Source: Gemmobacter nectariphilus (lineage in GTDB: Bacteria; Pseudomonadota; Alphaproteobacteria; Rhodobacterales; Rhodobacteraceae). From it: a stretch of 64,000 nucleotides of DNA. The position numbers were made by a program, and so were the translations under genes. The notes below the pieces were generated by a model. The model was not told the origin of the DNA and searched no databases. It saw only the letters and a program-made list of their open reading frames with translations. Shown piece after piece: positions 1,632 through 22,505 of this stretch (positions are counted from its first letter, which is position 1; every line of letters starts with the position of its first letter). Location of the stretch: NCBI GenBank assembly GCA_020721445.1, contig DYMU01000001.1, positions 1-64,000 of the forward strand. The letters run 5' to 3'.

Positions 1632-3486
1632 TATGTCCGCCGGGGGCGCGGGTGCTGGGGATGCGGCAACCCGCATCGGCGCGGCCGTGCTGGCAGAGGT
1701 GCAGGCCGAAGGCAACGACCGCACCGTGGCCCTGTCCTTCAGTAGCGAGGCACCCGTGCTGCGCGACTATAGCTTCGGCCCCGGCTGGGAAGTCCTCGGC
1801 CACCGGCCCGGCGAGGTGGACCTGTCCCGCGTGGCCCTCAACGCCGTGCCCCTCTTGGCCGATCACCGCCGCACCCTCGACGGGAAGCTGGGGTCCGTGA
1901 CCTCGGCCCAGATTGTCGGGGCGCGGGGAAAGGCCACTGTGACCTTCGCCGCCACGCCCGAGGCTGACGCAATGCTTGCCCGTGTCAGGGTCGGTGAAGT
2001 TTCCTGCACGTCCGCCGGGTATGCCGCCCACGCCATGGAAGTGGTGGGCGATGCCCCGGACGGCATTCCTATCGTGCGAGTGACCAAGTGGACGCTCCTC
2101 GAAATCAGCGTGGTGGCCGCACCTGCTGACCCTTCTGTCGGCATCGGCCGATCCATCCCCGACCCCCTGAAAGGACTGACCATGACCACCCCGAACCCCG
2201 CCGCGCCGGTCAATCCGGCTCCCGCCCCGGCCACGGCCGCGATGGAAGCAACCCGCGCCGAACGCCACCGCGTCCGCGAAATCGAAGCCACCGCCCGGCA
2301 GATGAACATGCCCGGCGACATGCTGGCCGCCGCCATCGAAGACGGCACCACCCTGGCCGATTTCCAGCGCCAAGCCCTCGACTTCATCGGGTCCGACACG
2401 GGCACCGCCACGCGCCAGCGGATGCACTCGCCCGCCATCCGGCGCGGCGGGGAACGCGAATACAGCCTGATGCGCGCCATTGCCGCCGAGTATTCGGGCA
2501 ACTGGTCGGAAGCCGGTTTCGAGCGTGAGGTGGCGCAGGAAACCACCCGCGCCGTGGGCAAGTCCGCCTCGGGCTTCTATGTGCCCCCGGCCGTTCTCGG
2601 CCGCGCCGTCATCACCACGGCCACCGCGCCGCAACTGATCGGCACCGATCACATGTCGTCGGCCTTCATCGACGCCCTGCGCCCGGAGGTGGCCGTGATG
2701 GGCCTCGGGGCCACCATCCTGCCGGGCCTGGTGGAAAACGTGTCGATCCCGCGCATGGTGTCGGGCACGGCCGCCGCGTGGGTTGCGGAAGGGGCGGCTG
2801 CGGCCGAATCCTCGCCTGTCTTCGACTCGGTGCCTCTGTCGCTGAAGCAACTGTCCGCCCGCAGCCAGCTTTCGCGGCGGCAGATGAAGCAATCGCTGCC
2901 GGGGCTGGACGTGCTGTTGCGCAATGACCTGCGCCGCAGCCTTGCCATCGAACTGGACCGGGCGGCCATCGCGGGCGCGGGTAGCGCGACCGTGCCGCGC
3001 GGCATCCTGAATACCGTGGGCATCGGATCGGTTGCCATCGGCGCGAACGGCGGCGTCCCGTCCTTCCAGTTTCTCACCAAGCTGATGGCCGAGGTGGAGT
3101 CCGAGAACGTGGCGGGCACGTCCTATGGCTGGCTGACCAACCACTTTGTGAAGGGCACCCTGCTGTCGACCCAGACGGCGGACGGCGCGCAACAGATGAT
3201 CCTTCAGCGGATCGGCACCGAATGGAACATCGCGGGCCACAAGGCGGCCTTCAGCAACCTTGTGCCCGCGAACGGCACCAAGGGCACCGGCACCGCCCTG
3301 TCGTCCATCATCTTCGGCAACTGGTCGGACCTTCTGATCGGCCAGTGGGGGGGCATCGACATTGTGGTCGATGACATGACCGGGGCCGATACCGGCAACG
3401 TGCGGATTGTGGCCCATTCGGAATGGGACATCGCCGTGCGCTATGCCCAGTCCTTCGCGGCGATCACGGACGCCGTGACCACCTAA
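1612..3486 (+). CDS. fused HK97-type prohead protease and major capsid protein
   Basis: A 624-residue protein with two parts. Residues about 35-180 match the U35 prohead protease family: VPLLADHRR with candidate catalytic His85, VGEVSCTSAGY with candidate Ser131, and LLEISVVAAPADP near 163-173. Residues about 270-624 match the HK97-fold capsid: GFYVPPAVLG, AAWVAEGAAAAES, and a block of the LSRRQMKQS type. In most HK97-like phages these are two genes; here the protease would cut scaffold sequence from the capsid inside one polypeptide. An internal ATG at 2182 with its own ribosome site may give free capsid subunits. It overlaps the preceding gene by 20 bases. Confidence 0.88.
   Translation: MTVRFTDMSAGGAGAGDAATRIGAAVLAEVQAEGNDRTVALSFSSEAPVLRDYSFGPGWEVLGHRPGEVDLSRVALNAVPLLADHRRTLDGKLGSVTSAQIVGARGKATVTFAATPEADAMLARVRVGEVSCTSAGYAAHAMEVVGDAPDGIPIVRVTKWTLLEISVVAAPADPSVGIGRSIPDPLKGLTMTTPNPAAPVNPAPAPATAAMEATRAERHRVREIEATARQMNMPGDMLAAAIEDGTTLADFQRQALDFIGSDTGTATRQRMHSPAIRRGGEREYSLMRAIAAEYSGNWSEAGFEREVAQETTRAVGKSASGFYVPPAVLGRAVITTATAPQLIGTDHMSSAFIDALRPEVAVMGLGATILPGLVENVSIPRMVSGTAAAWVAEGAAAAESSPVFDSVPLSLKQLSARSQLSRRQMKQSLPGLDVLLRNDLRRSLAIELDRAAIAGAGSATVPRGILNTVGIGSVAIGANGGVPSFQFLTKLMAEVESENVAGTSYGWLTNHFVKGTLLSTQTADGAQQMILQRIGTEWNIAGHKAAFSNLVPANGTKGTGTALSSIIFGNWSDLLIGQWGGIDIVVDDMTGADTGNVRIVAHSEWDIAVRYAQSFAAITDAVTT
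2170..2184 (+). promoter_or_regulatory. internal ribosome site and start codon for capsid-only product
   Basis: AAAGGA lies six bases before an in-frame ATG at 2182 (residue 191 of the fusion). This point falls in the linker after the protease domain, where a separate capsid gene would begin. It could supply extra capsid subunits. This is inferred from position and motif only. Confidence 0.5.
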
Positions 3487-3504
3487 AGCTGATCCTGCGG
3501 CACC

Positions 3505-3533
3505 GGCCCGCCCTACCTCGGGGCGGGCCTTTC
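3505..3533 (+). terminator. hairpin terminator or attenuator after capsid gene
   Basis: A 9-bp perfect GC stem (GGCCCGCCC and GGGCGGGCC) with a 7-base loop is followed by TTTC. It lies between the capsid stop and the tail-tube start and could lower expression of the downstream gene. Confidence 0.65.
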
Positions 3534-3555
3534 TCACATTCGGAAAGGGCCAGAC

Positions 3556-3945
3556 ATGGCAATCATTCACGGAAAGGACGGGGTAGTGAAGATCGGCACG
3601 GCCGACTTTGCCCACGTCCAAAGCTGGAATCTGGACGTGACGGCCGATGTGGCCGAAGCCTACAGCATGGGCGACGACTGGAAGGACGCCGGGGTTGGCG
3701 TCAAAGGCTGGTCCGGGTCGCTGGAATGCTACTATGATCCGGCGGACACAACGCAAACCGGCCTCGATGTGGGCGACGTGGTGGCGCTGAACCTCTATCC
3801 CGGCGGCGATGCGACCGGCGCGCGCTACTTCAGCGGCAACGCGGTGGTGTCCGGGGTGCCCCTGTCGGGGGCCAAGGACGGGTGGGTGTCCGTCACCTTC
3901 AACTTCACCGGCAAGGGCGCGCTGGCCTCGGCCACCGCCGCCTGA
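3556..3945 (+). CDS. phage tail tube-like protein
   Basis: A 129-residue protein. It has the pattern of small major tail proteins: a starting segment about inert measurement of the tube (DGVVKIGTADFAHVQSWNLDV), alternating beta-rich stretches, and a C-terminal segment WVSVTFNFTGKG typical of TP901-1-like tube proteins. GGAAAGGG precedes the ATG. It follows the capsid gene as in siphophage morphogenesis modules, but no assembly chaperone, tape measure or tip gene comes after it; the next genes run on the opposite strand. The module therefore stops abruptly. Other small beta-sandwich head-tail proteins are possible. Confidence 0.7.
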   Translation: MAIIHGKDGVVKIGTADFAHVQSWNLDVTADVAEAYSMGDDWKDAGVGVKGWSGSLECYYDPADTTQTGLDVGDVVALNLYPGGDATGARYFSGNAVVSGVPLSGAKDGWVSVTFNFTGKGALASATAA

Positions 3946-4033
3946 CGGCCGCCCCAGCCCTTCGCCGCCTCTTCTGTCGTCGGGGCAAGGCGGGGCGATT
4001 GGCGGGTGCAGAAGCCTTCACGGGGGGGCGGGG

Positions 4034-4381
4034 TTAGGCGATTGCAGGGTGGCGGGCCGCAACACGGGTGATGCGGCCCGCCCTCGACCATATGGCCGGG
4101 CCTTCATCCCGGTGCGCGCGATCTTGCAGCGCAAGCAAGGCGCGGGCATGGGCAAGCTGACCCGATGCCCAGACCACGCCCTGCCGGGTCACGATGTAGC
4201 TGCCCTTGCCGACCGGATGTATGAAGCCCAGCCGCAGGGCCATGCCCACGGCCATGTCCAGCCCGAAGGGGTCAAGACCGGCGGCGCGGCCCAAGGGCAT
4301 TTCTGGCGCGTCCTGCACGGCCGCCACGGCGCAAAGGAAGTCCAGAAGGTTGCGATTGCGCAATCTGGGGGCAGCGTTCAA
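4034..4381 (-). CDS. hypothetical element protein, winged-helix-like
   Basis: A 115-residue protein that I do not recognise. It has the look of a small winged-helix protein (FGLDMAVGMALRLGFIHPVGKGSYIVT resembles a helix plus wing, residues about 40-70), followed by a short basic C-terminal region. Its start codon overlaps the stop of the upstream minus-strand gene by four bases (ATGA), so the two are translated as a pair. It is convergent with the tail-tube gene. The codon pattern and overlap support it as real, while its function is unknown. Confidence 0.6.
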   Translation of the reverse strand: MNAAPRLRNRNLLDFLCAVAAVQDAPEMPLGRAAGLDPFGLDMAVGMALRLGFIHPVGKGSYIVTRQGVVWASGQLAHARALLALQDRAHRDEGPAIWSRAGRITRVAARHPAIA

Positions 4382-15564: not shown

Positions 15565-16995
15565 ATGCAAACGGATCAAGAGACGAGTTTTCGCGACTCG
15601 GTCGATCTGATGGTCAATCGTGCCATGCGGCTGATGGACCTCAGCCCCGGGCTGGAGCAGAAGATCAGGGTCTGCAATTCAACCTACATCGTGCGCTTTG
15701 GGGTGCGTCTGCGCGGCAAGATCGAAACCTTCACCGGCTACCGCTCGGTGCATTCCGAACATATGGAACCGGTCAAGGGCGGCATCCGCTATGCGCTGTC
15801 AGTCAGTCAGGATGAGGTGGAGGCGCTGGCCGCACTGATGACCTACAAATGCGCGCTGGTGGAAACGCCGTTTGGCGGCTCTAAGGGCGGGTTGTGCATC
15901 GACCCCCGCGCTTGGGAAGAACATGAACTGGAACAGATCACCCGCCGCTTTGCCTATGAGCTGATCAAGCGCAACCTGATCCACCCTGCACAGAACGTCC
16001 CCGCCCCCGACATGGGCACCGGCGAGCGGGAAATGGCCTGGATCGCCGATCAATACATGCGGATGAACACCACCGACATCAACGGCCGTGCCTGCGTGAC
16101 CGGCAAGCCGCCGCATGCGGGGGGCATTCAGGGCCGGGTCGAGGCGACGGGGCGCGGCGTGCAATACGCGCTGCGTGCGTTCTTCCGCTATCCGGAAGAC
16201 ACCGCCAAGGCCGGCCTGTCGGGCGGGCTGGAGGGCAAGCGGGTGATCGTGCAGGGCCTTGGCAACGTCGGCTATCACGCGGCCAAGTTCCTGTCCGAGG
16301 AAGACGGCTGCACCATCACCGCGGTGATCGAACGCGACGGCGCCTTGCACGATGATCGGGGGCTGTGCATCGAAGACATCCGGCAATGGATGGTGAAACG
16401 CGGCAGCATCAAGGGCTATCCCTCGGCGGCCTATATCGAAGATGGCACCGCCTTGCTTGAGGCCGAGTGTGACATCCTGATCCCCGCCGCCCTGGAAGGC
16501 GTGATCCACATGGGCAATGCGCCCCGGATCAAGGCCCCGCTGATCATCGAGGCGGCAAATGGACCGATCACCTTTGGCGCGGATGAGATCTTGCGCGAAA
16601 AGGGTGTGGTCATCATTCCCGACATGTTTGCCAATGCGGGCGGGGTCACGGTCAGCTATTTCGAATGGGTCAAGAACCTGTCGCACATCCGCTTTGGCCG
16701 AATGCAACGCCGCGCCGAAGAGGCCCGCTCGTTGCTGCTGGTGGAAGAGCTGGAGCGGCTTTCTGCCGACAAGGGCCTGGGCTGGACCCTGACCGAAGAT
16801 TTCAAGGACCGGTTCCTGACCGGGTCGGATGAACTGGCACTGGTGCGATCAGGGCTGGATGACACCATGCGCACCGCCTATCAGGCGATGCGCGCGGTCT
16901 GGCACGGGCGCGACGATGTCGATGACCTGCGCACCGCCGCCTATATCGTGTCGATCGACCGGGTGGCAAAAGCCTATCGGTCCAAGGGGTTGTAA
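15565..16995 (+). CDS. gdhA: glutamate dehydrogenase family enzyme
   Basis: A 476-residue Glu/Leu/Phe/Val dehydrogenase that interconverts glutamate and 2-oxoglutarate plus ammonia. Substrate motifs are visible: VKGGIRYA with the Lys near residue 73, ALVETPFGGSKGGL with the catalytic Lys near 111, and PAPDMGTGEREMAW with the conserved Asp. The nucleotide domain shows VIVQGLGNVGYHAAKFL near 229-245. It ends in a normal hexamer-type C-terminus. Cofactor preference cannot be read safely. The gene stands alone and has a strong ribosome site, GGGAGGGA. Confidence 0.92.
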   Translation: MQTDQETSFRDSVDLMVNRAMRLMDLSPGLEQKIRVCNSTYIVRFGVRLRGKIETFTGYRSVHSEHMEPVKGGIRYALSVSQDEVEALAALMTYKCALVETPFGGSKGGLCIDPRAWEEHELEQITRRFAYELIKRNLIHPAQNVPAPDMGTGEREMAWIADQYMRMNTTDINGRACVTGKPPHAGGIQGRVEATGRGVQYALRAFFRYPEDTAKAGLSGGLEGKRVIVQGLGNVGYHAAKFLSEEDGCTITAVIERDGALHDDRGLCIEDIRQWMVKRGSIKGYPSAAYIEDGTALLEAECDILIPAALEGVIHMGNAPRIKAPLIIEAANGPITFGADEILREKGVVIIPDMFANAGGVTVSYFEWVKNLSHIRFGRMQRRAEEARSLLLVEELERLSADKGLGWTLTEDFKDRFLTGSDELALVRSGLDDTMRTAYQAMRAVWHGRDDVDDLRTAAYIVSIDRVAKAYRSKGL

Positions 16996-17076
16996 GGCAA
17001 AGACAGCAACGCTGCACCGCAAAGGCCGCCCCACGGTCCCGGCCGGCACCGCGCGGGTCTGGCACTGGCCGTCGTG

Positions 17077-17634
17077 TCAGTAAAAACCGACCTCGCGCAC
17101 GTCGATCTGGGCGTCGTGGTCGCGGCCATAGGCGACCACGGCCACTGATGTCAGGCCACCGGGCCGGGGAACCGAGCGCAACAGCGCGCCCGAGGCGGCA
17201 AAGGCGGTGAACGGCAGCCGCACCTCGGCCCAGTTCGGCGTCACGTCAAAGCCCGCCTGATAATACTGCCATGGCAACAGCGTGCCCTTTGCCCGCAAAT
17301 GCACGAAATAGCGCTGCGAATTGCCACGCACCACCAGCCGCACGCCGGTTGTGCCCTCGGGCGGTGGGGTGGCAAGGTCCAGTCGCATCTGGATGAACCC
17401 GCCCCGGTTGGCGGTGCTGACGCGGCCGGTCATCCGGCCAAAGCTGGCCCCATCCTCGGTCAGGAACACCACCTGCCCCGATGAGACGCCGCCCATCACG
17501 CTATCCGTAAAGAACCGCCAGCCGGTTTCGGGCTGCATGGTGAAATCCTTGACCAACGGCGCGTCCGCCTGCGCGGGCTGCAAGGTCATAGCACAAAAAA
17601 CCAGCGCAAACATGAAGCAGATCAAACGGCGCAT
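17077..17634 (-). CDS. secreted CIA30-domain protein
   Basis: A 185-residue protein with a signal peptide (residues 1-25, MRRLICFMFALVFC... cleaved near AQA-D). The mature part matches the CIA30 fold (complex I intermediate-associated protein 30 family): WRFFTDSVMGGVSSGQV, FGRMTGRVSTANRGGFIQMR and a C-terminal DVREVGFY. The ATG at 17634 follows GGAGGGAATGAGG. It is the last gene downstream of the photolyase-like operon, 58 bases after DUF427. Bacterial members are of unknown function, and a role in complex I assembly should not be assumed. Confidence 0.82.
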   Translation of the reverse strand: MRRLICFMFALVFCAMTLQPAQADAPLVKDFTMQPETGWRFFTDSVMGGVSSGQVVFLTEDGASFGRMTGRVSTANRGGFIQMRLDLATPPPEGTTGVRLVVRGNSQRYFVHLRAKGTLLPWQYYQAGFDVTPNWAEVRLPFTAFAASGALLRSVPRPGGLTSVAVVAYGRDHDAQIDVREVGFY

Positions 17635-17692
17635 CAAAACCTCATTCCCTCCGGCCCCTGCCAGACCGCCTGTGGCGGCCGAGGGCCACGTT

Positions 17693-18166
17693 TCACCAAT
17701 GCCGCGTGCCGGGCGCACCCTTGATCTGGCCATCCAGATTGGGGGTGACCCAGCCGCCATAGAAATCACCCGGTTGCGGGACCACACGCAGATCACCCAC
17801 CCAGGCTTCGTCCATCAGCCCGGCGTAAAACGCCACATAACCCGCCAAGGCGGCAAAGCGCGGCGTCGGGCGGTCATAGGCCCATGCGGCACGCGGCGTC
17901 ACGGTCCCCCCTGCCAGCACATCGAAATAGCGCGCAACGCCCTTCCATTCGCAAAAGCTGCTGCCCGGCACGGGGCGAAGGCTGGCCTGCACATCGTCAG
18001 GCGGCAGGTAATAGGTCGGCGCGTGGTGGGTTTCCAACACCCGCAGTGCGCGGGTCGTTTCGGCCACCAGCACACCGCCATGCCGGATGAGGATGCGCTG
18101 TGCCACAGGTTCCAGCGCGGGCGGGCGCGGGTAGGACTGCACGTTTTCGCGCGGCAGATCGGTCAT
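17693..18166 (-). CDS. DUF427 protein
   Basis: A 157-residue protein of the DUF427 family, recognisable from ETTRALRVLETHHAPTYYLPPDDV, FCEWKGVARYFDV and RAAWAYDRPTP near residues 35-100. Biochemical function is unknown. Its start overlaps the stop of the UbiG-like methyltransferase (ATGA, 18163-18166), so the two are coupled. Its place in an operon headed by a photolyase-like flavoprotein hints at a light or oxidative-stress role, which is inference. Confidence 0.88.
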   Translation of the reverse strand: MTDLPRENVQSYPRPPALEPVAQRILIRHGGVLVAETTRALRVLETHHAPTYYLPPDDVQASLRPVPGSSFCEWKGVARYFDVLAGGTVTPRAAWAYDRPTPRFAALAGYVAFYAGLMDEAWVGDLRVVPQPGDFYGGWVTPNLDGQIKGAPGTRHW

Positions 18167-18912
18167 GGTGCGCCCCCTGCCCCGGCCATCTTTCTGGCCT
18201 CCCCGTCCGTGGCAAGCCCCGGCTTGCGCGCCAGCCCCATGTACAGGACCGCCGTCAGCGGCAACGGGCCAAAGGTCAGGTCAAACCGGCGGTTGACCCC
18301 GCGCGGCCCCAACCCGGTGATCGGGCCGGGCACCAGCCCCGCCCCTTGCAGCGCGCGCTGCAACTCGGCCGGCTTGATGAACATCGCCGGATCATGCGTG
18401 CCGCGCGGCAACAGGCGCAGCAGGTCTTCGGCAATCGTGATGGTGGCAAGGCTTGCCAGCGGATTGCGGTTGATCGTGTCATACAAGAACAACCCGCCGG
18501 GGCGCAGAACCCGCGCCACCTCGGCCAGCACCTTGTGCAGGTCCGTCACATGCTCCAGCACATCGACACAGACCACGGCATCAAAGGCGGCGGCGTCATA
18601 GGGCAGTGCCTCGCCCACCCCGACATCATAGCCGATGCGCAAGCCCTGGCTGCGGGCGTGGCTGCGGGCGGCGGCAATCGCCTCGGCCGCCGGGTCGATG
18701 CCGGTGACGTTGGCCCCGCGCGACGCCATCGCCTCGGCCATGAAGCCACCGGCACAGCCCAGATCCAGCACCGTCTTGCCCTGCCAGTCGATCCGGGCGT
18801 CAAACCAGCGCAGCCGCCCCGGCACAAGGTTCTTCAAGGTGCGCACCCAGCGGATATCATCCGACCACCAACTGTCGGCCGCCTTGTCGTAGATGGTCAG
18901 ATCATTGCGCAT
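18163..18912 (-). CDS. UbiG-like SAM-dependent methyltransferase
   Basis: A 249-residue class I methyltransferase. SAM motif I is VLDLGCAGGFMAEAMA (residues about 60-75), motif II GIDPAAEAIAAAR, and motif IV CVDVLEHV; YDTINRNPLASL and LRALQGAGL are typical of UbiG, the O-methyltransferase of ubiquinone synthesis. The N-terminus (IYDKAADSWWSDDIRWVRTL) differs from housekeeping UbiG, so this may be a paralogue with another substrate. The ATG at 18912 overlaps the membrane methyltransferase by 11 bases. Confidence 0.78.
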   Translation of the reverse strand: MRNDLTIYDKAADSWWSDDIRWVRTLKNLVPGRLRWFDARIDWQGKTVLDLGCAGGFMAEAMASRGANVTGIDPAAEAIAAARSHARSQGLRIGYDVGVGEALPYDAAAFDAVVCVDVLEHVTDLHKVLAEVARVLRPGGLFLYDTINRNPLASLATITIAEDLLRLLPRGTHDPAMFIKPAELQRALQGAGLVPGPITGLGPRGVNRRFDLTFGPLPLTAVLYMGLARKPGLATDGEARKMAGAGGAP

Positions 18913-19726
18913 CTTGGCGGTCCTTTGCGGGCAGAAGGCGGGGCACGGCATAGGGCACCCGGTCACGATAGCGTTGGAACCGCATGCCATAGCGCGCCGC
19001 AAACCGGCGTTCCTTAAGGCGCGGGGCCAGCAGGCAATAGGCGGTATAGCTGACCGCCAGAACCAGTTGATCCGGCGTCCAGACCGGCACCGTCCACAGC
19101 GTCAGCGCAAAGGCCACATAGATCGGCTGGCGGATCAGCGCGAACAGCCCTTGCGTCGGCATGTCGGGAAACACCGGCCGGATGCGCGCCATCAGCGACA
19201 TCCAGCCCAAGGCCCCCGACTGCACCTCGGCCCCGGCATCAAAGCTGGCCTTGATCAGCAACAGCCAGCTTGCGCCGTAGGCGCTGGTGATCATCCACAA
19301 CATTGCCCCTTCGGCCTGCCACCAGACAATGCCCGACGGCGTCCACAGCGCAAACAGCGCCAGCAGTTGCGCCGATGCGATCAGGGCATAGGTGGTGCTG
19401 GCCAGTGTTGCGCCATGCGGACCGGGGATCAGACGGGCAAGCGCGCGGCCACCCGGCCCGGTCAACAGCAGCGAATGCACCAGCGGGAACTGCACGATCA
19501 GCGCCGCATTGGCCAGCGCCGCCCATGGCCAAGGCACGCGGCCAAGGCTTTGCGACAGGCCGAAAAACATCGCCACGATCATTGCCAGCACTCCGGCGGC
19601 GAACATCGCATGGGTCAGCGCGCCCATCGTCAGGGCCAGCGCAATGCGCCCCGTGCCCGGTGGCGGCGGCACCGCCGCGCGGATCAGGCCGATCAGCCGG
19701 GCGATGCGCGGGTCAGACAGCATCAT
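18902..19726 (-). CDS. membrane methyltransferase-like protein (NnrU/MddA/ICMT type)
   Basis: A 274-residue integral membrane protein with about six membrane segments. The C-terminal third resembles isoprenylcysteine-type and methanethiol methyltransferases: ALIRQPIYVAFALTLW, YTAYCLLAPRLKERRFAARYG and YRDRVPYAVPRL, where family members bind SAM. NnrU, MddA and ICMT all share this region, so the substrate is not decided. It overlaps the photolyase-like gene by four bases upstream and the UbiG-like gene by 11 bases downstream. Confidence 0.72.
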   Translation of the reverse strand: MMLSDPRIARLIGLIRAAVPPPPGTGRIALALTMGALTHAMFAAGVLAMIVAMFFGLSQSLGRVPWPWAALANAALIVQFPLVHSLLLTGPGGRALARLIPGPHGATLASTTYALIASAQLLALFALWTPSGIVWWQAEGAMLWMITSAYGASWLLLIKASFDAGAEVQSGALGWMSLMARIRPVFPDMPTQGLFALIRQPIYVAFALTLWTVPVWTPDQLVLAVSYTAYCLLAPRLKERRFAARYGMRFQRYRDRVPYAVPRLLPAKDRQDAQ

Positions 19727-20943
19727 GCCGGCACCATCTGGTCAAGGATGCGCGGGATCTGCTGCTTGACCTTGAAAAACCCGGCGGTGGCATGCGGCCA
19801 GATCGCCATATCCCAATCGCGCCGCCATTCGGTCAGGGTGATGCCCTTGGCGGTCAGATAGGGGGTGGCCTCGGCGATCCAGTCTTGCAGCGGGCCGCGC
19901 GTGACATAGGGCGTCGCGATCTGCACAGCCCCCGCCGCTGCCGCCCATTTGGCCAGCACCTCGGAGTGTTCGGCCTGCAACGGCACCGGCACCACGCCCG
20001 CCCGCAGGGCGGCATCGGTCAGGGCGGCGGCCTCAAACTGCACAACCGCCTCGGCCACCGGCAAGGGCGAGCGCAAGGGGCTGGCCGCAAGCGTCGCCGC
20101 GGTGCGGATATCCAAGGCCGCCAGATTGAAATCCTGCACACAGCAGTCTTCATCGGTGATCAACAGCGCCGTGGGTTGGCCGGGTTTTGGTGCCGTAATG
20201 GCGCGCAGGGGCAGCACGGGGGGCAATCCGTCAGGCTCGGTCGCCTCAAGCCCTTGCGTCACCTCGGCCAGATCGCCGGGCCGTGGCGAAAAACGACCGC
20301 CGGTAAAGGTGGTGATGTTGTCGGCCCGCGCCGGATAGGGTTTGCCGCGCGTGTGCAGCCCCGCCGCCCAACGCCAGCCCAGCGTGTTGGAGGCCGCATC
20401 CCCATCCAGCAGGTGCCGATAAAAGAAATCCGCCCCCAGCCGCCACGGCAGGTCCAGCGTGAAGATCCAGATCGAGGCAAACCACATCCGGGCATGGTTG
20501 TGCAGATAGCCGGTTTCAACCAGTTCCGCGGCCCAGGCATCAAAACAGTCCAGCCCGGTCTGGCCATCCATCGCCCGTTCCACATCGCGGCGCAGGCGGC
20601 GGTCACGGTCAAGGGCGGCCAGATCGGCCTGCAAACCGTGGCAATAGCTGGTCCAGACCTGCGGGCGGCGTTCCAGCCAACCCTTGAAATAGCCCCGCCA
20701 GATCACCTCTTCGACAAACTTTTCAGCGGCGTCCGGGCCATGTGCCGCCAGCGCTGCCGCAACCACCTCTTGCTCGGTCACCAGCCTGCGACGGATATAG
20801 GGCGACAGCACCGACACGGCCTTGTGCCGACCCGCGCCATGGTCATGGTTGCGGCCATTGGCATAGCGTCGGCCCATGGCCGGGGCAAAGGCCTGCATTG
20901 CGGCCAAGCCTTTCGCGCGGGTGGCGGTGAAGATCTGGGTCAT
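19723..20943 (-). CDS. photolyase/cryptochrome-like flavoprotein with FAD domain first
   Basis: A 406-residue protein. Residues about 45-215 match the FAD-binding domain of photolyases: VLSPYIRRRLVTEQEV, FVEEVIWRGYFKGWLE, TGYLHNHARMWFAS, and LLDGDAASNTLGWRWAAG. In usual photolyases an alpha/beta antenna domain precedes this. Here only about 45 residues precede it, while residues about 255-400 after it (TALLITDEDCC, then alternating helices and strands) look like such an alpha/beta domain. The order appears swapped. The ATG at 20943 is chosen because upstream residues look non-coding. It heads a five-gene operon with overlapping reading frames. Confidence 0.82.
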   Translation of the reverse strand: MTQIFTATRAKGLAAMQAFAPAMGRRYANGRNHDHGAGRHKAVSVLSPYIRRRLVTEQEVVAAALAAHGPDAAEKFVEEVIWRGYFKGWLERRPQVWTSYCHGLQADLAALDRDRRLRRDVERAMDGQTGLDCFDAWAAELVETGYLHNHARMWFASIWIFTLDLPWRLGADFFYRHLLDGDAASNTLGWRWAAGLHTRGKPYPARADNITTFTGGRFSPRPGDLAEVTQGLEATEPDGLPPVLPLRAITAPKPGQPTALLITDEDCCVQDFNLAALDIRTAATLAASPLRSPLPVAEAVVQFEAAALTDAALRAGVVPVPLQAEHSEVLAKWAAAAGAVQIATPYVTRGPLQDWIAEATPYLTAKGITLTEWRRDWDMAIWPHATAGFFKVKQQIPRILDQMVPA

Positions 20944-21092
20944 GGCTGCCTTGTCCTGCTGCGTCAGTGCAAAGCTGTTGCGCGCAGAGGCAAAATCAAC
21001 AGATGCCGCGCCACCTGCGCCAAAACGCACCGCCCCCAACCCCCGGAACGCCACCCGGTTGCAGGCCAGAAATCATGGTCGGTCAGACAAGC

Positions 21093-21168
21093 TGGTGGGT
21101 GATGAGAGACTCGAACTCCCGACATCCTCGGTGTAAACGAGGCGCTCTACCAACTGAGCTAATCACCC
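21093..21168 (-). tRNA. tRNA-Val (anticodon UAC)
   Basis: The reverse strand folds as a 76-base cloverleaf with encoded CCA. The acceptor stem GGGTGAT pairs with ATCACCC, the D arm has GCTCAGTTGGTAGAGC, the anticodon arm is CCTCG-TTTACAC-CGAGG with anticodon TAC, and the T loop is TTCGAGT. Confidence 0.95.
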
Positions 21169-21320
21169 GACAAAGGTCGTCTAATGGCTTCGCGTCAGCC
21201 TGACAAGGGCCCCGGTCCAAAAAGGCACAGCCGTTCGGGCGGATCGTTTCTGGCAAGTGGCGGTGACAACGGATGTTGCGCCGATGCCGTCCAAGGCCTG
21301 ACACCTGTCCCAGCGGTCCG

Positions 21321-22505
21321 TCAAGCCCGGGTCACGTCGTGTCCGTAAAGCCAGTCAAAGCGGTTCAGCGCGAAATCGGGGGCAAGGCTGCTGCCCAAGC
21401 GCAGGCCCAGATGGGCCAGACCGCGCAACGGGCCGGACAGGTGGTAGGCGCGGGCATTGGTATTGGCCGCCGCGACAATCCTGGTGCAGCGCGGGGCACG
21501 TGCCGCCTGATAGGCGGCAAGGCCGGCGGCCTGCGTGTCGTGACGGGCCAGACTGTCGGCCAGCACCCAGGCATCCTCCAGCGCCATGCAGGCGCCTTGC
21601 GCCAGAAACGGCAGCGTCGGATGCGCCGCGTCGCCCAGGATCGCCACGGCACCGGCCGCTTGCACCGCCTGCCAGCGCCGCGCAACCGGGTGGCGAAACA
21701 GCCCCCACAGCCAGACATCCTGAACCTGATCCAGCCAGCCCTGCACCCGCGGGCAAAAGCCTTCAAACGCCATCTGCACGTCCATCTTGTCGTCGCGCAG
21801 GTTCCAGCCTTCTTCGACCCAGCGTTCGCGCTCTTCCACCGCCACAATGTTGCGCAGCGTGCCGCCGCGCATCGGATAGCTGACCAGATGCCGCCCCGGC
21901 CCCATGAACACCTCGGCCAGGTCCGGCACACCCGGCACTTCAGGAATGATGGTGCGCCAGGCGACCTGACGGGTAAAGACGGGCGCTGCCTTGCCTTGCA
22001 ATGCTTCGCGGGTCTTGGAATGCAGCCCGTCGGCCCCGATCAACAGGCCGGTCTCGCCCCGGTCGCCGGTTTCGGTGCGCCACGCCGGGCGCGGGCCGGA
22101 CAGATCCACCTCGGCCACCCGCTGCAACAGGCGCAAGGTCACCCCGACGTCACGCGCGCCCTCCAGCAGCAGGGCAATCAGATCGGCGCGGTGCAGAAAA
22201 TGATAGCCCTGATCGGGCCGCGCCCGCGCCACGTCCAGCCGCACCACCAGATCGCCCGACGGGCCATCGCGCAACTCGACCGCCCGGGCGCGCATCGAGG
22301 CGGTTTCCAACGCCTCGCCCAGCCCCAATGCGCGCAGCACCACCGCGCCATTCGGGCTGACCTGCAACCCGGCCCCGACTTCGCGCACCGCATCGGCCTG
22401 TTCCAGCACGGTGACCTGCGCCCCGCGCAACGCCAAGGCCCGCGCCACCGCCAGCCCCGCAACCCCTGCCCCCAGAACGGTGACCTCTTGGCCGATCAAG
22501 CTCAT
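21321..22505 (-). CDS. FAD-dependent monooxygenase (salicylate hydroxylase type)
   Basis: A 394-residue flavoprotein of the group A hydroxylase family. The dinucleotide motif VLGAGVAGLAVARAL (residues about 10-24), LIGADGLHSKTREAL (the DG motif, about 155-169) and AILGDAAHPTLPFLAQGACMALEDA (GD motif, about 290) are all present. Such enzymes use NAD(P)H and oxygen to hydroxylate aromatic or related rings. The substrate cannot be told from sequence. It stands alone between tRNA-Val and dksA on the same strand. Confidence 0.88.
   Translation of the reverse strand: MSLIGQEVTVLGAGVAGLAVARALALRGAQVTVLEQADAVREVGAGLQVSPNGAVVLRALGLGEALETASMRARAVELRDGPSGDLVVRLDVARARPDQGYHFLHRADLIALLLEGARDVGVTLRLLQRVAEVDLSGPRPAWRTETGDRGETGLLIGADGLHSKTREALQGKAAPVFTRQVAWRTIIPEVPGVPDLAEVFMGPGRHLVSYPMRGGTLRNIVAVEERERWVEEGWNLRDDKMDVQMAFEGFCPRVQGWLDQVQDVWLWGLFRHPVARRWQAVQAAGAVAILGDAAHPTLPFLAQGACMALEDAWVLADSLARHDTQAAGLAAYQAARAPRCTRIVAAANTNARAYHLSGPLRGLAHLGLRLGSSLAPDFALNRFDWLYGHDVTRA

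Follow-up and report, generated by a model that had tools for sequence, protein, structure and literature searches.

A photolyase-headed five-gene operon of Gemmobacter nectariphilus with a possible role in light-stress protection of anoxygenic phototrophs

In a stretch of 64,000 nucleotides from Gemmobacter nectariphilus (the window; assembly GCA_020721445.1, contig DYMU01000001.1, positions 1 to 64,000) five consecutive genes encode a photolyase of the NewPHL class, an MddA-like membrane protein here named MddL, a UbiG-like methyltransferase, a DUF427 protein and a CIA30-domain protein. Genes of these five families track the genes of the photosynthetic reaction centre among related genomes, and we consider it about an even chance (a probability of roughly 0.5) that they form an operon with an accessory role in protecting an anoxygenic phototroph from light stress. 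The photolyase class is already known, and what is new is the cassette and its link to phototrophy, the literature on that link not having been searched.

Co-occurrence with reaction-centre genes

Phototrophy was scored in 341 genomes of the order by matches to the reaction-centre family PF00124 (E ≤1e-20), which are present in 142 genomes including the window's own, where two matches are found on contig 15. Reaction-centre genes occur in 108 of the 141 genomes that carry a NewPHL gene (E ≤1e-60) as compared to 34 of the 200 that do not (p 6e-29), and likewise in 45 of 49 MddL carriers (p 3e-15), in 40 of 45 carriers of the UbiG-like gene (E ≤1e-50; p 2e-12) and in 18 of 27 carriers of the closer NewPHL subfamily, that of at least 61% identity (p 0.008). 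The MddL count was obtained by dropping six weak or partial rows (G120, G148, G161, G172, G197 and G350) from the 55 carriers found at 1e-15, and when these are included again the proportion becomes 48 of 55. DUF427 and CIA30 were intended partly as negative controls, but both proved to be linked to the reaction centre as well: in a sample of 80 from the 341 genomes, half of them with and half without the marker and taken for the most part from the lower-numbered half of 160 randomly drawn genomes, DUF427 (E ≤1e-25) is found in 12 of the 40 reaction-centre genomes and 1 of the 40 others, and CIA30 (E ≤1e-10) in 30 and 9, respectively. Counting per genus keeps the direction for all five families (NewPHL p 3e-9, MddL 9e-6, UbiG-like 2e-6, CIA30 2e-5, DUF427 0.04).

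MddL furthermore lies 10-11 kb from a PF00124 match in four genomes of one genus (G198, G344, G361 and G408; genus g89), and at the locus of G361 (L204), where bchP and idi are also present, it stands beside an ABC1/UbiB-like gene, the kinase being UbiB-like but below the UbiB cut-off. The NewPHL species of the published list, given in the last section, we take to be phototrophs. That the families follow phototrophy points to a light-protection kit, and a link to light, which a reading of the window's sequence alone had held conceivable, is thereby supported for all five of them.

Gene neighbourhood in relatives

The same sequence-only reading had taken the five genes for one set, and they do recur together in other genomes. 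In our survey of neighbourhoods, for which genes were called mechanically with backing from tblastn searches with the window proteins and in which many loci stem from metagenome-assembled genomes (MAGs), the window's order is found in loci L130 and L128, while L129, L036 and L046 have it with an additional renalase gene directly behind that of the photolyase. L129 and L046 hold a single run of ABC1-kinase, photolyase, renalase homologue, MddL, UbiG-like, DUF427 and CIA30 genes, and L128 has the same run except for the renalase gene, its kinase belonging to PF03109. The renalase homologue of L044 matches the solved renalase 4zcc_A over residues 2-307 of 310 (2.1e-33). Genes for DUF393 (DCC1-like) and DUF4149 proteins are also recurrent in these neighbourhoods, and several loci have NewPHL beside renalase or ABC1 genes without MddL (e.g. 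L047, L055 and L065).

Six partner families were tracked around 80 NewPHL loci. First partner matches reach a density of 211 per Mb in the nearest 1.5 kb, which decreases to 64 between 1.5 and 3 kb and to 8 between 3 and 5 kb from the photolyase gene, with none at all from 5 to 8 kb. Among NewPHL loci of at least 70% identity a partner is present within 6 kb in 19 of 28. On a NewPHL tree with 46 labelled rows, 17 with and 29 without a partner within 3 kb, the label changes fewer times than in any of 500 shuffles, and we can conclude that it is clustered, yet often gained or lost. The window genome itself has an ABC1 homologue (51%) on contig 17 with no tracked partner in the 13 kb covered there; a full renalase homologue was not found in this genome, where one weak match (E 2.8e-4) lies at a contig end. 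Partial or broken matches to MddL, UbiG-like, renalase, DUF427 or ABC1 genes occur beside intact photolyase genes (L007:1280-1483, L043, L050 and L040) and are signs of either loss in place or poor assembly.

Gene structure of the operon

Table 1. Genes of the operon, in their order along the minus strand.
Product	Position in the window	Strand	Remarks
NewPHL-type photolyase	19723..20943	-	406 aa; FAD domain aa 1-239, probable antenna-like alpha/beta domain aa 248-406
MddL (MddA-like membrane methyltransferase-like protein)	18902..19726	-	274 aa; 4-nt overlap with photolyase gene
UbiG-like class I SAM (S-adenosylmethionine) methyltransferase	18163..18912	-	249 aa; 11-nt overlap with MddL gene
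DUF427 (PF04248), beta-tent fold family	17693..18166	-	157 aa; 4-nt overlap with UbiG-like gene
CIA30-domain protein (PF08547)	17077..17634	-	185 aa; N-terminal signal-like segment; 58 bp after DUF427

The operon layout that had been read from the sequence is upheld. Overlaps of 4, 11 and 4 nucleotides, the first of them an ATGA, join only the first four genes, the CIA30 gene following after a gap of 58 bp. Pfam matches are found for FAD_binding_7 (flavin adenine dinucleotide, FAD; 3e-23), Methyltransf_11 (1.1e-26), DUF427 (9.5e-32) and CIA30 (1.8e-20). The ratio of non-synonymous to synonymous substitution rates (dN/dS) is 0.09-0.26 in all 15 comparisons of the five genes with three relatives; none of them thus resembles a chance open reading frame (ORF), and we can conclude that all five are real genes under purifying selection. 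The layout suggests that they may be co-transcribed. A tRNA-Val gene on the same strand precedes the operon by 149 bp, and no match to a sigma-70-type promoter was seen within 16900-21400.

The photolyase

By Pfam, the FAD domain of the window photolyase, a protein of 406 residues, spans residues 76-209. An AlphaFold2 model, built on an alignment of 48 sequences from which L034 was left out for a stop within its frame, has a mean predicted local distance difference test score (pLDDT) of 95.1, and its residues 1-238 resemble the FAD half of photolyase 2j07 (residues 171-420; Z 15.9). Residues 248-406, when folded alone (pLDDT 93.9), fit best on residues 5-172, the antenna half, of 1np7 (Z 9.8, 148 of 159 residues aligned), and the ten best structural matches are all photolyases or cryptochromes. 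It should also be mentioned that 1np7 leads the highest-scoring universal stress protein (2pfs, Z 8.9 over 109 residues) by less than one Z unit, which amounts to a tie, and that in Foldseek Cam1 comes out on top (9.6e-4), followed by photolyases from the second rank on (1.3e-3). Comparison of sequences gave no support for the C-terminal domain: HH-align against class I antenna domains returned a probability of 0.5%, which lies within the spread of 20 column-shuffled runs, no alignment to an FeS-type or other photolyase reached 1%, a custom profile alignment scored 15.9 and thus lower than its reversed control (17.8) and the best shuffles, and PF00875 matched this domain in just 1 of 48 rows, at 0.055. 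Since proof from sequence failed, the swap of the two halves is deduced from the fold predictions and from what has been published on the class; on these grounds the FAD and antenna halves are most likely swapped, and the reversed domain order that had been read from the sequence agrees with models that place the FAD domain first and a probable antenna-type alpha/beta domain second.

The active site is conserved in that the counterparts of E. coli PhrB E274, W277, N341, M345, W359, D372, N378, W382 and W384 are invariant in the 48 rows, and the position of R342 is a histidine in the window photolyase. W190 and W167, which align with W382 and W359, are among these invariant residues and the position of W306 is an arginine, so that the alignment indicates a tryptophan dyad and not a triad. 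An Fe-S cysteine set, the lack of which PMC9426592 associates with Phr7, was not seen, since no cysteine is invariant in the 48 rows although C267 nearly is, and the CxxC cluster that follows the FAD domain in Deinococcus P0001 is likewise missing from the window photolyase. Residues and model together assign the protein to the NewPHL class. The sequence-only reading had regarded it as a permuted flavoprotein without function, which does not hold, since the dyad and the reversed domains match this known class of photolyases for cyclobutane pyrimidine dimers (CPDs). We likewise rejected the notions that the permuted photolyase is a new type and that split pairs of FAD and alpha/beta genes are new, the latter being already known as phr4/phr5/phr6.

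Other photolyase genes were seen in the course of the survey, their neighbours being named by eye. A second copy in the window genome (L111:4960-6162, on contig 28 of G000; 44% identical) lies beside ClpX- and ClpP-like genes, as do further members of this second NewPHL subfamily in many relatives (L013-L015, L018, L020, L022-L025, L028 and L030), around which no tracked partners were seen within the short flanks covered. In Natronohydrobacter and Rhodobacteraceae MAGs a MutL-like gene, itself following zinc-peptidase-like genes, is found directly or one gene upstream of the photolyase gene on the same strand (L053, L066, L068, L070, L072, L085 and L103), and FeS-type (6-4) photolyase-like genes occur near NewPHL genes in L009, L032, L039, L076 and L181:12023-14988. 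An FAD gene of SPL size followed by a small alpha/beta-domain-like gene is found in L236:2399-3690, L240:2961-4182, L241:2471-3597 and L243 (~2447-4239), with overlaps of 4, 8 and 4 nucleotides in L236, L240 and L241, the latter two based on mechanically assigned starts; these split reversed photolyases, from Deinococcus and genomes of the window's class, resemble phr4/phr5 of Synechococcus. Protein P0002 matches PF00875 at 2.3e-4, below the cut-off. Fused FAD-first photolyase-like proteins are encoded in L237:2381-3748, L238:2339-3709, L239:2423-3598 and L244:2613-3878, their hosts being two Deinococcus plasmids, Persicobacter and one genome of the window's class, and in Persicobacter the gene is followed by a class I-like photolyase ORF.

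The methyltransferase pair and the two small proteins

The presence of two methyltransferase-like proteins, as previously claimed, is upheld by the Methyltransf_11 match mentioned above and by a match of MddL to the MddA model NF045656 (3.5e-22). The latter is the single NCBIfam match of MddL, which has no Pfam match and is found in 13 of 101 relatives, and at 78.8 bits it does not reach the equivalog cut-off of 270. The UbiG-like protein scores 161 bits against TIGR01983, above the equivalog cut-off of 103, over profile positions 5-208 of 228, matches 4kdc_A at 3.2e-37 and keeps in 39 rows a GTHD..FI.P.EL stretch, which we take to be UbiG-like. Another UbiG on contig 45 of the genome reaches 284 bits over the whole profile, and the operon copy is therefore probably a paralogue. 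Among the 341 genomes MddL is found in 49, the UbiG-like gene in 45 and both in 34 (Fisher p 1e-25), and in 27 of these 34 the two genes are no more than 6 kb apart. MddL and the closer NewPHL subfamily share 11 genomes, and are within 6 kb of each other in 7 (p 4e-4).

The DUF427 protein reaches 109.1 bits against a Pfam gathering cut-off of 22.1 and matches its solved relative 3djm_A at 8.4e-10; the family fold is the beta-tent, as in MsrB and the CULT domain of cereblon, according to the consulted part of PMC4287342. The CIA30 protein reaches 74 bits against a gathering cut-off of 24 and has a hydrophobic segment at residues 4-22, which makes the earlier notion of a secreted protein probable, export being predicted from this segment.

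Proposed function and alternative explanations

If the genes do form a light-stress protection operon, the photolyase would be expected to split CPDs by means of a reduced N-terminal FAD reached by a two-tryptophan chain, with the preference of its class for single-stranded DNA and driven by near-UV or blue light, and the downstream genes would deal with further damage that light causes at the membrane. The MddA-like and UbiG-like enzymes would methylate a membrane-borne lipid of the quinone or phenol type, the DUF427 protein may be a small ligand-binding protein and the CIA30 protein might act in the periplasm, the whole set possibly being induced by light. The choice of lipid is our guess, and it is preferred because one of the enzymes bears a UbiG-like signature and an ABC1/UbiB-like gene recurs in the neighbourhood. 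A more specific version is unlikely, in which the operon belongs as one arm to a hitherto undescribed accessory module for anoxygenic photosynthesis. Here the MddA-/UbiG-like pair, together with its ABC1/UbiB-like and renalase partners, would produce a methylated lipid of the quinone or phenol type that shields the photosynthetic membrane, this synthesis being co-translated with single-stranded DNA photorepair.

Several observations weigh against a light-stress protection operon. At least one tracked partner lies within 6 kb in only 29 of the 80 NewPHL loci, or 15 of 48 when counting is confined to loci that extend 5 kb or more on either side; of 40 MddL neighbourhoods that were retrieved, no more than 7 contain a NewPHL gene; and the NewPHL tree requires a minimum of nine changes of the partner label. 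The partner counts and the tree make the association between NewPHL and its partners a loose one. The co-occurrence test handles kinship by genus counting only, and in four genomes (G021, G168, G266 and G291) MddL is present but no reaction-centre match is. In two of these (G021 and G266) the cluster has a large form, so the cassette can exist before phototrophy is gained or after it is lost. Furthermore, no PpsR-, Fnr- or RpoE-type motif is enriched upstream: the PpsR motif TGT-N12-ACA occurs once in 121 NewPHL upstream regions (shuffle mean 3.0), Fnr-like and RpoE-like motifs not at all in these, and the RpoE-like motif once in 65 MddL upstream regions. CTTGAA occurs 14 times in the 121 regions (mean 7.0, sd 2.9), which is too weak for use.

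The scarcity of NewPHL around MddL would also fit the notion that the MddL/UbiG-like pair is the core, serving a tailoring or biosynthesis step of phototrophy on a quinone, carotenoid or chlorophyll-related lipid, and that the photolyase merely joined it as another gene useful in light. The close spacing of the pair in 27 of 34 genomes, the reaction-centre genes of 45 of 49 MddL carriers and the ABC1/UbiB-like gene beside MddL at the bchP-idi locus are in agreement with this, but NewPHL tracks the reaction centre by itself (108 of 141) and adjoins renalase or ABC1 genes where MddL is missing; in addition MddL is absent from 97 of the 142 reaction-centre genomes and is therefore not an essential step of phototrophy. 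A pair of this kind with an added photolyase is a possible explanation, though a doubtful one. The mosaic of gains and losses on the tree and the partners in only 29 of 80 loci may instead suggest that the genes are co-directional without a common function, small light-related genes having accumulated by drift and gene transfer. This is rather unlikely, since partner density drops steeply with distance, tight spacing is preserved in relatives and the same partners recur in varied orders, the ABC1 and photolyase genes being adjacent in Peteryoungia (Rhizobiaceae) and, in opposite order, in Ruegeria TM1040. Sulfur methylation by the operon, which had been held conceivable from the sequence, is likewise unlikely, since MddL is below the MddA cut-off. 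A volatile-sulfur system proper, with the membrane protein as MddA converting methanethiol to dimethylsulfide, would agree with the sole NCBIfam match of that protein, but in view of its score and of the fact that the recurrent partners identified are not sulfur genes, though no search was aimed at such genes, it is highly improbable.

Through this operon a characterised photolyase class and four families whose role is unknown or uncertain become linked to a single lifestyle, anoxygenic phototrophy, and the function of MddA-like, DUF427 and CIA30 proteins becomes testable in culturable bacteria. If it is true that the methyltransferases modify a lipid of the photosynthetic membrane, this would be a protective pathway absent from current maps.

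Comparison with known systems

MddL is a distant homologue of MddA, far below the equivalog cut-off. The UbiG-like protein is closer to its namesake, being above the TIGR01983 cut-off and having kept the GTHD..FI.P.EL stretch, but it differs from the other UbiG of the genome in score and in standing in a different operon.

A photolyase gene near one for UfaM, which we take to be a methyltransferase, is also found in Pseudomonas. Here the consulted part of PMC9758184 describes a LitR-controlled region with light-inducible genes for a photolyase, an FAD-dependent oxidoreductase and UfaM, which is the likeness to our operon; the same text places PhrB, a short-chain dehydrogenase, hypothetical genes and LitR in that region, whereas the window operon showed no regulator.

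Among reversed photolyases, Phr4/Phr5 and Phr6 of marine Synechococcus and Cyanobium share the order of FAD and antenna domains, in one or two genes, but have Fe-S cysteines according to the parts of PMC9426592 consulted, and the window protein is without that set; this source describes a photolyase form of FAD and Z-domain as well as a split or fused Fe-S form. NewPHL (Emmerich et al. 2020) is known to us by way of the consulted parts of PMC13274461, PMC8948257 and PMC9426592. In the first of these, NewPHLs or SPLs repair CPDs in single-stranded DNA and have an inverted domain topology, with members in Dinoroseobacter shibae, Methylobacterium mesophilicum, Erythrobacter litoralis and Rhodospirillum centenum, and in the second the D. 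shibae protein is credited with 'a mere Trp dyad'. The window protein resembles them in having the FAD domain first, a short antenna-like domain last, a tryptophan dyad, no Fe-S cysteine set and contact residues of the class I CPD type, and may thus be expected to repair DNA in the same way. It differs in that it is known from sequence and model alone, and in that it heads a multi-gene operon with methyltransferases.

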